A DNA stretch of 64,000 nucleotides from Solitalea longa (GTDB taxonomy: Bacteria > Bacteroidota > Bacteroidia > Sphingobacteriales > Sphingobacteriaceae), in the NCBI RefSeq assembly GCF_002920915.1, contig NZ_PQVF01000001.1:124001-188000 (forward strand), given 5' to 3'. Positions within the stretch are counted from its first letter, which is position 1. Each line of letters starts with the position of its first letter. The notes beneath the pieces were generated by a model. It searched no databases. It saw only the letters and a list, made by a program, of their open reading frames with translations, and was not told where the DNA came from. The position numbers and the translations under genes were made by a program. Positions 17,865 through 32,690 of the stretch are shown in pieces.

Positions 17865-18113
17865 ATGGCTAAAAACACCTCTATTTTGTTGGGAGATCAT
17901 TTTGACAATTTTATAAACCAACAAATCAAAACCGGTAAATTTTCTACAGCAAGCGAAGTTGTAAGAGCCGCATTAAGAATGTTTGAACACGAAGAAACTA
18001 AGAAATCCGAATTAATAAAAGAGCTTCAAAAGGGAGAAAAATCTGGATTTGTAGAAAGTTTTGATCGAGAGGTTTTTCTTAAAAGCTTGAAACAAAAACA
18101 TTCGGCTGAATGA
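17865..18113 (+). CDS. ParD-family antitoxin (ribbon-helix-helix)
   Basis: An 82-residue protein with a CopG/ParD ribbon-helix-helix domain. The N-terminal strand is KNTSILLGDHFDNFINQQIK, followed by GKFSTASEVVRAALRMFE, the diagnostic S-x-S/A-E-V-V-R-A-A-L-R motif of ParD antitoxins. The C-terminal half (ETKKSELIKELQKGEKSGF) is charged and would wrap and neutralise the toxin. It should bind its own promoter at 17820-17841. Its TGA stop overlaps the toxin's start codon, so the two are translationally coupled. Confidence 0.93.
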   Translation: MAKNTSILLGDHFDNFINQQIKTGKFSTASEVVRAALRMFEHEETKKSELIKELQKGEKSGFVESFDREVFLKSLKQKHSAE

Positions 18114-18412
18114 TGAAATACAGAATCAGTAAGGAAGCTTTGAATGATTTAGAAAAAATTTGGCTTTATACTTTCGAGAATTGGTCGGTTGTACAGGCGG
18201 ACCGATATTTTAACTTGATAATGGATGAAATTGAGTATATATCCAGTAATCCAAAATCCGGGAAAGATTACAGTGAGGTGCGAAGTGGATACTTTCGCTC
18301 AAGAGTAAAATCCCATTTTATTTTCTACAAAATCAATTTAAAAAAAGAAGAAATTGAAATCATAAGAATTCTTCATCAACGTATGGATATCGATTCTCAT
18401 TTGGAGACCTAA
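18110..18412 (+). CDS. RelE/ParE-family toxin
   Basis: A 99-100-residue toxin of the RelE/ParE fold: YRISKEALNDLEKIWLYTFE, WSVVQADRYFNLIMDEIEYI, SGKDYSEVRSGYFRSRVKSH and FIFYKINLKKEEIEIIRILHQRMD, with the conserved terminal R-I-L-H-x-R-M-D. ParE-type members poison DNA gyrase, whereas RelE-type cut mRNA on the ribosome; the pairing with a ParD antitoxin favours ParE. Two adjacent ATG codons exist (18110 and 18113); either overlaps the antitoxin stop. The reading frame is intact, so the module looks functional. Confidence 0.92.
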   Translation: MMKYRISKEALNDLEKIWLYTFENWSVVQADRYFNLIMDEIEYISSNPKSGKDYSEVRSGYFRSRVKSHFIFYKINLKKEEIEIIRILHQRMDIDSHLET

Positions 18413-19816: not shown

Positions 19817-19852
19817 ATAGATAATATCTATGCGTTCATAAATATTATCGCT
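19817..19852 (+). promoter_or_regulatory. OxyR-type binding site upstream of katG
   Basis: ATAG-ATAATAT-CTAT (19817-19831) matches the OxyR half-operator consensus ATAGntnnnanCTAT at every specified base and sits within a perfect GCATAGAT/ATCTATGC palindrome (19815-19833). A weaker second half-operator follows at about 19838-19852 (ATAA-a-T-att-A-t-C..). The katG start is at 19909. An OxyR gene with both redox cysteines is present at 31419-32354. Confidence 0.65.
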
Positions 19853-19902
19853 TTGATTTATGTTTATAAGTGAATTAAATTCGAAATAAATAAATAAAAT
19901 AA

Positions 19903-26217: not shown

Positions 26218-26550
26218 ATGGGAGTTACCCGTACTGAAATATTTACCCAGGAACAAAACGAGCTGGCGCAAATGATGAAAGCATTGGCTCACCCGGCCCG
26301 AATAGCCATTATTCAACAGCTCTTGAAATCGCAAAGCTGTATCTGTGGCGATTTAGTTGACGAGATTGGATTGGCTCAAGCTACCATTTCCCAGCATTTG
26401 CGTGAACTAAAAGCAGTAGGAATTATAAAAGGGACCATTGAAGGCACAAGTGTTTGTTATTGCATTGACGAAGAGGTATGGAAACACTATAACAAAACTT
26501 TCGGAAGTCTTTTTAATAGCCTGCCAATAGTAGGTAAATCCTGTTGTTAA
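26218..26550 (+). CDS. arsR: ArsR/SmtB-family arsenic-responsive repressor
   Basis: A 110-residue winged-helix repressor: MMKALAHPARIAIIQQLLKS, then SCICGDLVDEIGLAQATISQ with the CxCGDL metal-site motif of As(III)-sensing ArsR proteins at the start of the recognition region, then HLRELKAVGIIKGTIEGTSV and the wing. Trivalent arsenic binding to the cysteines (C-x-C here, plus a C-terminal CC that may add ligands) would release it from DNA. It is the first gene of the operon, followed after 55 bp by arsM, with operator-like dyads on both sides. Confidence 0.93.
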   Translation: MGVTRTEIFTQEQNELAQMMKALAHPARIAIIQQLLKSQSCICGDLVDEIGLAQATISQHLRELKAVGIIKGTIEGTSVCYCIDEEVWKHYNKTFGSLFNSLPIVGKSCC

Positions 26551-26568
26551 AAAAATTTATCTCTATTT

Positions 26569-26584
26569 ATCGTAATATTGCAAT
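26569..26584. promoter_or_regulatory. Second, imperfect ArsR-type operator between arsR and arsM
   Basis: ATCGTAATATTGCAAT differs from the 26187-26202 palindrome at 2 of 16 positions and lies 21 bp ahead of the arsM start. The left half-site ATCGTAAT is identical. This suggests a second repressor site controlling arsM and downstream genes separately from arsR. Confidence 0.6.
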
Positions 26585-26605
26585 CAAGCATTTAATCTAA
26601 TTATT

Positions 26606-27442
26606 ATGAAAACAGAAGTAGAATTAAAAAACCTGGTAAAAGAAAAGTATACCGAAATTGCCTTACAGGATAAGGAAACAAACATGGGCTCTTGCTGCGG
26701 AGCGAGTTGCTGCTCGGAAGAAGTGTATAACATCATGAGCGATGACTATACGAAACTCGAAGGTTACAACGCAGATGCTGACTTAGGATTAGGTTGCGGT
26801 TTGCCTACAGAATTTGCCAAAATTAAAAAGGGCAATGTGGTAATTGATCTTGGCTCAGGTGCCGGAAACGACTGCTTTGTTGCCAGAAGCCAAACCGGTG
26901 ACACGGGTAATGTAATCGGTATTGATTTCACCGAGGCAATGATTAACAAGGCCCGGGCTAATGCAGAGAAACTGGGGTATAACAATGTGGAATTTCGTTA
27001 TGGCGATATTGAGAAAATGCCCGTTACATCAGCAATCGCCGACGTAATTGTGAGTAACTGCGTATTAAACCTTGTTCCGAATAAGGAAAATGTGATTAAC
27101 GAAATTTATCGTGTACTTAAACCTGGCGGGCATTTCAGCATTTCAGACATAGTATTGGTGGGAGCATTACCGGAAGCTTTAAAGCAAACCGCCGAAATGT
27201 ATGCAGGCTGTGTATCGGGAGCGATTCAAAAAGATGAGTATCTTGGATTTATTTCGAAGGCCGGCTTTAAGAATATAACATTGCAGAAAGAAAAAGTCAT
27301 CAATATTCCTGATGATATACTTTTGAATTATATAAGTGAAGAAGAGCTATCTGCTTTTAAGGAAAGTAAACTTGGAATTTACAGCATTACGGTTTATGCC
27401 GAAAAACCTGAAGCTTGTTGCCAGCCGGGTTGTTGTAGTTAA
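26606..27442 (+). CDS. arsM: Arsenite S-adenosylmethionine methyltransferase
   Basis: A 278-residue class I methyltransferase of the ArsM family. The N-terminal cysteine-rich segment MGSCCGASCCSEE is followed by the SAM-binding motif VIDLGSGAGNDCFVA. The three conserved As(III)-binding cysteines are all present: Cys64 in LGLGCGLP, Cys152 in IVSNCVLNLVP and Cys202 in MYAGCVSGAI. A terminal CCQPGCCS adds further thiols. It methylates As(III) to mono-, di- and trimethylated species, some of them volatile. Second gene of the operon, followed by a 109-bp gap containing a small repeat. Confidence 0.95.
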   Translation: MKTEVELKNLVKEKYTEIALQDKETNMGSCCGASCCSEEVYNIMSDDYTKLEGYNADADLGLGCGLPTEFAKIKKGNVVIDLGSGAGNDCFVARSQTGDTGNVIGIDFTEAMINKARANAEKLGYNNVEFRYGDIEKMPVTSAIADVIVSNCVLNLVPNKENVINEIYRVLKPGGHFSISDIVLVGALPEALKQTAEMYAGCVSGAIQKDEYLGFISKAGFKNITLQKEKVINIPDDILLNYISEEELSAFKESKLGIYSITVYAEKPEACCQPGCCS

Positions 27443-27470
27443 CCCTAAATCCCCTAAAGGGGACTTTGGA
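27443..27470. repeat. CCCCTAAAGGGG-type intergenic repeat
   Basis: Directly after the arsM stop, CCCTAAATCCCCTAAAGGGG and following ACTTTGGA form a GC-rich dyad centred on CCCCTAAAGGGG (imperfect, arms CCCC/GGGG with a TAAA loop). I recall similar 'CCCCTAAAGGGGAC' elements scattered in other Bacteroidota genomes. It might attenuate transcription into the rest of the operon, but it lacks a T tract. Confidence 0.5.
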
Positions 27471-27551
27471 TTCATCTCAAGGAAAACTTAAATTCAATGA
27501 AGAAACCAGTTGAACAACGTTCGTTCTCCACCGGAATAACTTATCAACTAT

Positions 27552-28043
27552 ATGACAATTTCTCCTTTGCTTCCCGAACATTGGGAAGCTGTAAAAACAA
27601 TTTATGAAGAAGGTATCGCCACCGGTAATGCCACCTTTCAACAGTCGGCTCCAACCTGGGAAGAGTGGAATGAAGGTCATTTACAAGAGTGTCGATTCGT
27701 AGCACTTATTGACGATAAAGTTGCTGGCTGGGCGGCCTTAACCAGGGTCTCGGGTCGTTGTGTGTATGCAGGCGTGGCCGAAGTGAGTGTTTACGTGGGC
27801 GAAAACTATCGCGGCTATGGTATTGGTGCTTTATTGCTCAATCATTTGGTCGCCGAGAGTGAGAAAAATAACCTTTGGACGCTTCAGGCTGGCATTTTTC
27901 CAGAAAATAAAGGAAGCTTAGCTCTTCATCAAAAATTTGATTTCCGGATTGTGGGCAAGCGTGAAAAAATTGGCAAAATGGATGGTGTTTGGAGAGATAC
28001 CATATTGTTGGAACGAAGAAGTAAAATAGTAGGAATTGAATAG
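27552..28043 (+). CDS. ArsN1-like GNAT acetyltransferase
   Basis: A 163-residue GNAT protein close to phosphinothricin/arsinothricin N-acetyltransferases. It has the N-terminal motif [31 protein letters not shown], then [20 protein letters not shown], which holds the acetyl-CoA loop R-G-Y-G-I-G, and [20 protein letters not shown] with the conserved N-x-x-S-L-A-L-H segment. The start at 27552 fits the first strand ([11 protein letters not shown]). Its position inside an ars operon supports the ArsN1 subfamily, which inactivates the arsenic antibiotic arsinothricin. Acetylation of another amino compound is possible. It ends one base before the acr3 start, so they are translationally coupled. 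Confidence 0.85.
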
Positions 28044-28044
28044 C

Positions 28045-29088
28045 ATGCAAAAACGACTTTCATTTTTAGACCGAAACCTAACGCTGTGGATCTTTCTTGC
28101 CATGGCTATGGGTGTAGGAATTGGATACTTTTCCCCCTCAACCCCAAATTTCATTAACCGCTTTAACCGTGGAACAACGAACGTTCCTATAGCCATCGGT
28201 TTAATTTTAATGATGTATCCCCCATTAGCCAAGGTGCGATACGACAGGCTGGGGGATGTATTCAGAAATAAAAAAATATTGGGTTTATCCTTAATCCAGA
28301 ACTGGATCATAGGTCCTGCCTTGATGTTTATACTCGCCGTTGTATTTCTTCGGGATTATCCTGAATACATGATCGGTTTAATTATGATAGGTATTGCCAG
28401 ATGTATAGCAATGGTCATCGTTTGGAATGATCTGGCAGGGGGCGACAGAGAATATGTCGCCGGCTTAGTTGCCTTCAATAGTATTTTTCAGGTGTTGTTT
28501 TACAGTTTATACGCCTGGATTTTTGTCACCAAACTGCCTTTGCTTTTCGGAATCCAATCTACAATAGTTGATATCAGTATTGGACAGATTGCCCAAAGTG
28601 TATTCATCTATTTGGGTATTCCATTTATTGCCGGTTTCCTGTCTCGAACCTTATTGATGAAACTTAAAGGAAGAGAATGGTATGAACATACCTTTTTACC
28701 TGCCATCAGCCCAATTACCTTGATCTCTTTATTATTTACCATTGTTGTAATGTTCAGTTTAAAAGGAGATCTAATCGTAAAAATCCCTTCTGATGTGGTA
28801 CATATCGCTATTCCTTTACTATTATACTTTGGAATCATGTTTTTCTCTGCCTTCTTTCTGGCTAAAAAAGCAGGAACCGATTATGAGAAGTCAACATCTC
28901 TTGCCTTTACGGCTGCAGGGAATAATTTTGAGCTGGGTATTGCTGTGGCCATTGCGGTTTTCGGGATCAATTCGGGAGTAGCCTTTGCAGCGGTAATAGG
29001 TCCGTTGATTGAGGTTCCTGTACTTATCTTGCTAGTAAATTTCGCCCTCAAGCAAAAAACAAAGTTCCAAGAAATAAAATCAACCTAG
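28045..29088 (+). CDS. acr3: ACR3-family arsenite efflux permease
   Basis: I place the start at ATG 28045, one base after the ArsN1-like stop; an earlier TTG at 28036 would overlap it. The 347-residue protein has about ten membrane helices of the BART superfamily: [40 protein letters not shown], and the essential cysteine of helix 4, Cys120 in [19 protein letters not shown]. The conserved glutamate of the later helix is Glu296 in [16 protein letters not shown]. It exports As(III), driven by the proton gradient, and completes detoxification after reduction. It is followed 21 bp later by arsC. Confidence 0.95.
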
Positions 29089-29109
29089 ATAATCAACAAC
29101 TATTTAAAA

Positions 29110-29523
29110 ATGAAAAAAGTATTGGTACTCTGTACAGGTAATTCATGTCGTAGTCAGATGGCACATGGTTACTTACAGCTTTTTGCAGGTGATAAAGCAG
29201 AAATTTATAGTGCCGGCGTAGAAACTCACGGGATTAACCCCCAAGCGGTAAAAGTAATGGCTGAAGACGGAATTGATATTTCAAAACATACCTCCAATAA
29301 TGTAGATGAATATGCAGGTATTGATTTCGATTTTGTGATTACCGTATGTGATAATGCGAAGGAACGTTGTCCGGTGTTTCCTACTATAGCAAAACAATTC
29401 CACCATGATTTTCCTGATCCGGCAAAACTACCCGGAGATTATGAGCAGAATCGTGAAGCCTTTATTCATACTCGAAATCTGATTAAAGGTTATATGAAGG
29501 CATTTGTAGAAAGAGAATTTTAG
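29110..29523 (+). CDS. arsC: Thioredoxin-coupled arsenate reductase
   Basis: A 137-residue protein of the low-molecular-weight phosphatase type: VLVLCTGNSCRSQMAHGYL contains the CX5R loop with nucleophile Cys8. The resolving pair is Cys80 and Cys87 in VITVCDNAKERCPVFP, and a catalytic FHHDFPDPAK loop follows, so all three redox cysteines of the thioredoxin-linked (pI258-type) family are present. It reduces As(V) to As(III), which then leaves through Acr3 or is methylated by ArsM. Last gene of the operon; a hairpin follows. Confidence 0.95.
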   Translation: MKKVLVLCTGNSCRSQMAHGYLQLFAGDKAEIYSAGVETHGINPQAVKVMAEDGIDISKHTSNNVDEYAGIDFDFVITVCDNAKERCPVFPTIAKQFHHDFPDPAKLPGDYEQNREAFIHTRNLIKGYMKAFVEREF

Positions 29524-32354: not shown

Positions 32355-32466
32355 GTTGTTAGTAGTAAATACTTGCTCAAAGATGGCAACTGAATATCTC
32401 TGCCCATCCTTTTAAGTCTGAACAAATATCAAGTTTTTCTATCAGGTTATAAAAGCAATCAATTTG

Positions 32467-32690
32467 ATTGATGCAAAGGGTGCCTTTAAATTTGAATTCA
32501 ACTTTTACGCAAACACTATTTATAATATGCCATGGAAGAAAAAGAGAAGAGAAATGATCAGCTGATACCGAACATGATCCTTGGGGATTTACAATTAAAT
32601 TTTATACCGAAGTCGTCAACCGGGACCCTACTGAAAAAAATACTCCGGTATTTTTTGTAAAGGGTCCAATTCGGCGATTTCATCCATACC
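32467..32690 (+). pseudogene. Remnant of a monofunctional heme catalase gene
   Basis: Fragments of a clade-3-type catalase are spread over several frames. At 32467 the sequence reads IDAKGAFKFEF (intact catalases: HAKGxGAFGYFEV). In another frame EEK[22 protein letters not shown] matches the conserved GEKGSADTxRDPRGFAIKFYTE, with the Gly codon GGA changed to a TGA stop at 32555-32557. [11 protein letters not shown] then follows, and after one more frame change DFIHT (intact: FPDFIHT). The rest of the roughly 480-codon gene is gone. It is divergent from oxyR, a common oxyR-catalase arrangement. A catalase here was inactivated and mostly deleted. Confidence 0.85.

Follow-up and report, generated by a model that had tools for sequence, protein, structure and literature searches.

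We found a predicted OxyR operator at positions 19817-19852 of the window (the whole 64-kb stretch of DNA analysed here), which very probably makes katG peroxide-inducible; we put the probability of this reading at roughly 87%. That the operator ahead of katG is OxyR's had been proposed in a preliminary description of the window, and conservation, promoter register, ranking by operator models, and placement upstream of oxyR all agree with that proposal. At the level of sequence, the site, its conservation, its promoter register, and its recurrence at peroxide genes and upstream of oxyR can be documented, and a predicted OxyR operator is supported as the best reading of the site ahead of katG. 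It would be an OxyR switch of a familiar kind, with an ordinary mechanism and a modest variant in spacing.

Predicted operator and promoter ahead of katG

The distal half-site agrees at every specified base with ATAGntnnnanCTAT, reportedly the consensus of the E. coli OxyR operators as given by Toledano, and it is the sole exact match to the half-site within the 64-kb window (Table 1). The second half that had been described about 6 bp further on is also present and, as stated, is weaker than the distal one. Thus, the two halves were described correctly, while the characterization of the whole as a classical E. coli-type operator holds for the half-site, which is exact, and fails for the full operator, in which the gap is 6 bp and not the E. 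coli-type 7 nt (22-bp repeat). The E. coli gap of 7 nt is given in the part of PMC10580950 available to us, and for K-12 oxyRS, a gap of 7 scored best (16/20), with all other gaps at 13 or less.

Table 1. Features of the window that bear on the predicted OxyR switch.
Feature	Position	Strand	Details
Distal (recognition) OxyR half-site ATAGATAATATCTAT	19817..19831	+	10/10 specified bases of ATAGntnnnanCTAT
Proximal (activation) half-site ATAAATATTATCGCT	19838..19852	+	6 bp past distal half; abuts -33 element
Putative -33 element TTTG, katG promoter	19852..19855	+	Read from sequence; 20 bp from -7 element
Putative -7 element TAAATTCG (consensus TAnnTTTG)	19876..19883	+	59 bp from operator start
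katG, catalase-peroxidase HPI, 759 aa	19909..22188	+	NCBIfam TIGR00198 1200.8 bits, cut-off 770.25
oxyR, LysR-type peroxide sensor, 311 aa	31419..32354	-	Cysteines at 25, 199, 208
Second OxyR-type operator, upstream of oxyR, pointing away from oxyR	32428..32463	+	Third-best R2 region, E 0.03
Degenerate distal half of second operator	32428..32442	+	Gap 6 to proximal half
Proximal half of second operator ATAAAAGCAATCAAT	32449..32463	+	
-7 element TAAATTTG	32487..32494	+	59 bp from second operator's start
Decayed catalase remnant, divergent from oxyR	32543..32674	+	Covers about 90-133 of Pfam Catalase; one internal TGA

We scored gaps of 3 to 10 with a second-half consensus derived from the same sequences; the 80 loci counted had a distal half scoring 9/10 or better and a second half scoring 9/15 or better. 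The second half-site was conserved among relatives, and the gap between the halves was 6 in 48 of the scored family loci, 5 in 26, 9 in three, 8 in two, and 7 in a single one. A gap of 6 was typical of genus g13 (37 of 41 scored loci), while a gap of 5 was typical of genus g14 (18 of 21).

Downstream of the operator lies a putative promoter whose upstream element reads TTTG, which is the -33 consensus. Its downstream element corresponds to TAnnTTTG, described as the -7 consensus, located at -12 to -5, for Flavobacterium psychrophilum (PMC9723704, in part). The transcription start of katG is accordingly predicted near 19888, with half-site centres near -64 and -43. At 47 of the 48 scored loci with gap 6, the operator start was followed 59 bp on by a -7 box matching TAnnTT[TC][GA]; at 24 of the 26 with gap 5, this distance was 58 bp. 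Therefore, the proximal half and the promoter behave as one block, against which the distal half slides by 1 bp. We consider it rather likely that the OxyR of Bacteroidota acts on a shortened operator, with half-sites repeated at 21 bp (20 bp in one clade) and not 22, and with a proximal half held rigid to the -33/-7 promoter while the distal half slides by 1 bp; this would imply a tetramer geometry or a DNA bend unlike the proteobacterial one.

According to the mechanism that we propose, two OxyR dimers would bind two 15-bp inverted repeats, so that the distal consensus half would anchor the OxyR tetramer, with the weaker proximal half abutting the -33 element. Hydrogen peroxide would drive formation of a Cys199-Cys208 disulphide, upon which the tetramer would shift onto the proximal half, contact RNA polymerase at the -33/-7 promoter (TTTG, 20 bp, TAAATTCG), and switch katG on. 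Binding by the window's OxyR, the redox shift, and activation over repression would be expected by analogy with OxyR and LysR-type regulators generally, and we infer activation of katG from the layout of operator and promoter. The opposite outcome, in which OxyR binds here but mainly represses katG, is improbable. Although the position of a site alone is no proof of the sign of regulation, and OxyR represses catalase in Neisseria (PMC7999485, in part), a proximal half that abuts the -33 element and predicted centres close to those of oxyS, which is activated in E. coli (-66 and -44 relative to its start; PMC5002191, in part), form a typical activator layout. Moreover, the OxyR of P. intermedia is described as mainly activating, as are those of other Bacteroidetes, in the accessible part of PMC7999485. 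Thus, an OxyR operator that activates katG remains the preferred reading.

The window also holds, at 17865-18412, a pair consisting of a ParD-like antitoxin (NCBIfam TIGR02606) and a ParE-like toxin (Pfam PF05016). The region 26218-29523 encodes an ArsR/SmtB regulator, an ArsM-like methyltransferase, an Acr3-like SBF-family transporter, and an ArsC-like LMWPc-family protein; it is probably an arsenic resistance cluster, the arsenic role being deduced from the domains.

The regulator, the operator models, and recurrence at oxyR

The preliminary description had noted Cys199 and Cys208 in a regulator encoded in the same window, and oxyR indeed carries both. In an alignment with OxyR chain 3ho7, which is the second-best match among solved structures and is the P. 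gingivalis protein (PMC7999485, in part), both are paired with cysteines. The best NCBIfam model for the regulator is OxyR (PRK11151), with 234.7 bits, below the equivalog cut-off of 329, and 34 of 65 residues in its N-terminal DNA-binding domain are identical to those of E. coli OxyR. Because an OxyR relative was present in 80 of the 80 genomes tested, presence or absence of the regulator is uninformative on its link to the operator.

We used two operator models. R1 was built from 35 operators, among them that of the window, and R2 from 34 operators with their promoters, leaving out that of the window (leave-one-out). In the genome of the window, R1 ranked katG first (E 3.7e-6). Among 12 family genomes searched, it matched katG in 11, with no match in the remaining one (G016); since eight of the 11 katG operators were in its training set, R1 is informative mainly by the scarcity of other matches, of which these 12 genomes gave only four at E <= 0.05; one of the four lay immediately upstream of oxyR. 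R2 also placed katG first in the 4.5-Mb genome (E 3.8e-4). Its second match, C34:181063 (E 0.0011), is an operator that starts 107 bp ahead of an AhpC/TSA-family peroxiredoxin gene followed by an AhpD-like gene (Pfam CMD), with a gap of 6 and a -7 box, CACCTTTG, at offset 59. The third match lay in the window itself, at 32434-32493 upstream of oxyR, and the fourth was C36:67362 (E 0.16). We judged C33:174081 (E 0.058 under R1, 2.4 under R2) and the other weaker matches of either model below the third to be chance. Neither model gave a match ahead of KatE or any of this genome's three ferritin-family genes.

The third R2 region corresponds to a second OxyR-type operator, and within the 160 bp upstream of the window's oxyR no half-site scored above 7/10. 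The catalase remnant that follows (PF00199, E 1.1e-8, or 9e-10 with X at the stop) is 65% identical over 40 aa to the catalase of a relative, and the promoter of this decayed gene is still recognizable. Downstream of this second operator, an OxyS-like small RNA or a 43-aa peptide was considered, but both were rejected because the stretch is the catalase remnant.

Among 30 family oxyR loci, a catalase gene is divergent from oxyR in six, without a stop across 461-469 aligned query residues, as far as the fetched stretch extends. In the six intergenic regions, the best half-site scored 9/10 at L231, 7/10 at L230, and 8/10 at the other four loci. Within the genus of the window, G046 has a catalase next to oxyR that aligns over 444 residues, up to where the stretch ends. 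The operator of this catalase shows a gap of 6 and a -7 box, TAACTTTG, at offset 59, and no KatG was found in this genome. G029 retains only a C-terminal catalase remnant beside oxyR, and G004 has no catalase in the 1,500 bp searched beside oxyR; KatG is present in both. This pattern is suggestive of a catalase replaced by KatG under the same regulator, although four genomes are too few to claim it.

We also ran R2 on 148 phylum genomes of at least 90% completeness, own included, at E <= 0.002 with strict filters. The scan gave 14 matches in 12 genomes and none in the other 136; this count is a floor because the filters failed to pick up G035, in which katG is preceded by a half-site of 9/10. 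Thirteen of the 14 operators were outside the R2 training set, with only L310 within it. Twelve lay ahead of a gene for katG (L310, L311, L312, L316, L317, and own), catalase (L314 and L318), Dps-type ferritin (L313 and L319), rubrerythrin (L320), or ahpC (own genome), and, in all, 13 precede a peroxide-defence gene, oxyR, or both. The L315 match sits between oxyR and a GntP permease gene, while no related gene was recognized near L321. A gap of 6 in these matches is not independent evidence, as R2 was trained on gap-6 sites; for gap frequencies, the 80 scored family loci are the proper source. Of 31 oxyR upstreams, each 160 bp long and taken from 30 family loci plus the window, 13 contained a half-site scoring 9/10 or better, compared with one for the reversed motif, and motif and control were equal at 8/10 (15 and 15). 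Recurrence upstream of oxyR and at peroxide genes therefore points to OxyR as the binder.

Sites of LysR-type regulators generally follow T-N11-A, which the ATAG/CTAT palindromes resemble, and each genome has several LysR-type candidates (up to 19 at first look). Use of the site by another regulator, either a second LysR-type protein or PerR/Fur, is nevertheless very improbable, given that nine of the 14 phylum matches (L311-L315 and L317-L320) lie upstream of oxyR, the usual place of a LysR-type regulator's own site, and that the regulator's N-terminal DNA-binding domain closely resembles its E. coli OxyR counterpart.

Conservation of the half-site and its chance level

Of 301 family genomes (own included), 235 had KatG relatives. 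For the analysis of conservation, we took the best 110 of 150 listed places by KatG similarity, made up of 30 first loci (own included) and the next 80 listed; because they were taken in this order, more distant KatGs are absent from the sample. In these best 110 of 150 katG upstreams, the highest half-site score within 300 bp was 10/10 in 55, 9 in 33, 8 in 16, 7 in five, and 6 in one, so that 88 reached at least 9/10 and 22 did not. The same 110 sequences gave no exact match and two of at least 9/10 with the reversed motif, and no exact match and one of at least 9/10 after shuffling (one shuffle per sequence). By genus label, a half-site of at least 9/10 was present in 43 of 44 upstreams of g13, 22 of 31 of g14, and nine of 15 of g16. 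Pedobacter falls within the family, the operator stretch of L105 and L133 being the same as that of the Pedobacter records L012 and L025.

An exact half-site within 450 bp was present at 15 of 80 named katG loci drawn from many phyla; 14 of these 15 belong to Bacteroidota and one to Stenotrophomonas. The katG loci of Chryseobacterium, Flavobacterium, Niabella, Dyadobacter, and Gynurincola scored 9 or 10, and those of Emticicia and one Mucilaginibacter scored 7. Within the genus of the window, the two genomes with katG, G004 and G029, had no good site upstream of it, the best being 7/10. Since their KatGs are only 73-74% identical to that of the window and lack a good half-site, the sequences suggest that KatG origins differ within the genus.

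In four katG upstreams of genus g16 (L143, L187, L203, and L204), katG was preceded at 160-170 bp by half-sites of 9-10/10. Boxes resembling a -7 element occurred there at 48 and 58 bp, and neither gap 5 nor gap 6 showed a clear second half; the arrangement is possibly different in this genus.

The half-site alone carries no genome-wide signal, as it occurs exactly at 10 places in the 4,517,600-base genome, compared with 11 for the reversed pattern. Within the window, 46 matches with at most two mismatches were found, where 41.5 +/- 5.6 were expected. Calculated from these 10 places in 4,517,600 bases, the probability that one particular 300-bp upstream region contains an exact match is about 7e-4. 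The preliminary description had suggested a genome-wide half-site scan to see whether hits precede peroxide genes. In such a scan the motif occurs at random frequency, and besides katG, no recognizable peroxide gene lies at the ten places. For the nine others, this was judged by reading the neighbouring translations only; three lie inside an open reading frame, and one beside CysD/CysH-like genes was set aside as probable chance. Such a scan would seem to refute the operator because the half-site by itself is at random frequency, while operator and promoter together are specific. The site ahead of katG is more than chance because it is conserved among family katG upstreams. That it is a chance AT-rich palindrome, as the ten exact places against 11 reversed might suggest, is scarcely credible in view of the conservation, register, and model ranking, and is contradicted by the phylum scan as well.

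Comparison with known OxyR systems

Our results provide a usable operator and promoter model with which peroxide regulation can be traced in Sphingobacteriaceae and, more sparsely, across Bacteroidota, where the composite of operator and promoter succeeds and a half-site scan fails. The series of 20-, 21-, and 22-bp repeats is a natural test of how much the geometry of the OxyR tetramer weighs.

OxyR as such is well known in Bacteroidota: within this phylum, it governs oxidative-stress genes in Bacteroides, Porphyromonas, and Prevotella (PMC7999485 and PMC2430334, both in part), and the targets in P. gingivalis include fimA and sod (PMC2430334, in part). The accessible parts of these two papers carry no operator consensus, and our literature search, within a limited library and set of terms, found none stated for any Bacteroidota species.

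The operators of E. coli (oxyRS, katG, and ahpC) consist of the same 15-bp ATAGntnnnanCTAT half-sites in tandem. As in the genome of the window, katG and ahpC carry the site in E. coli (PMC10580950, in part), and a site upstream of oxyR is common to both. The predicted half-site centres lie 2 and 1 bp from those of oxyS (PMC5002191, in part). In contrast, the gap here is 6 (or 5) bp instead of 7, and the promoter is of the Bacteroidota -33/-7 type, unlike that of E. coli. The gene divergent from oxyR also differs, being katG or a gene for catalase, Dps-type ferritin, rubrerythrin, or GntP permease in the phylum matches and the small RNA oxyS in E. coli. Together, these comparisons suggest that Bacteroidota and Proteobacteria have retained a common OxyR half-site but differ in its spacing and in the promoter.
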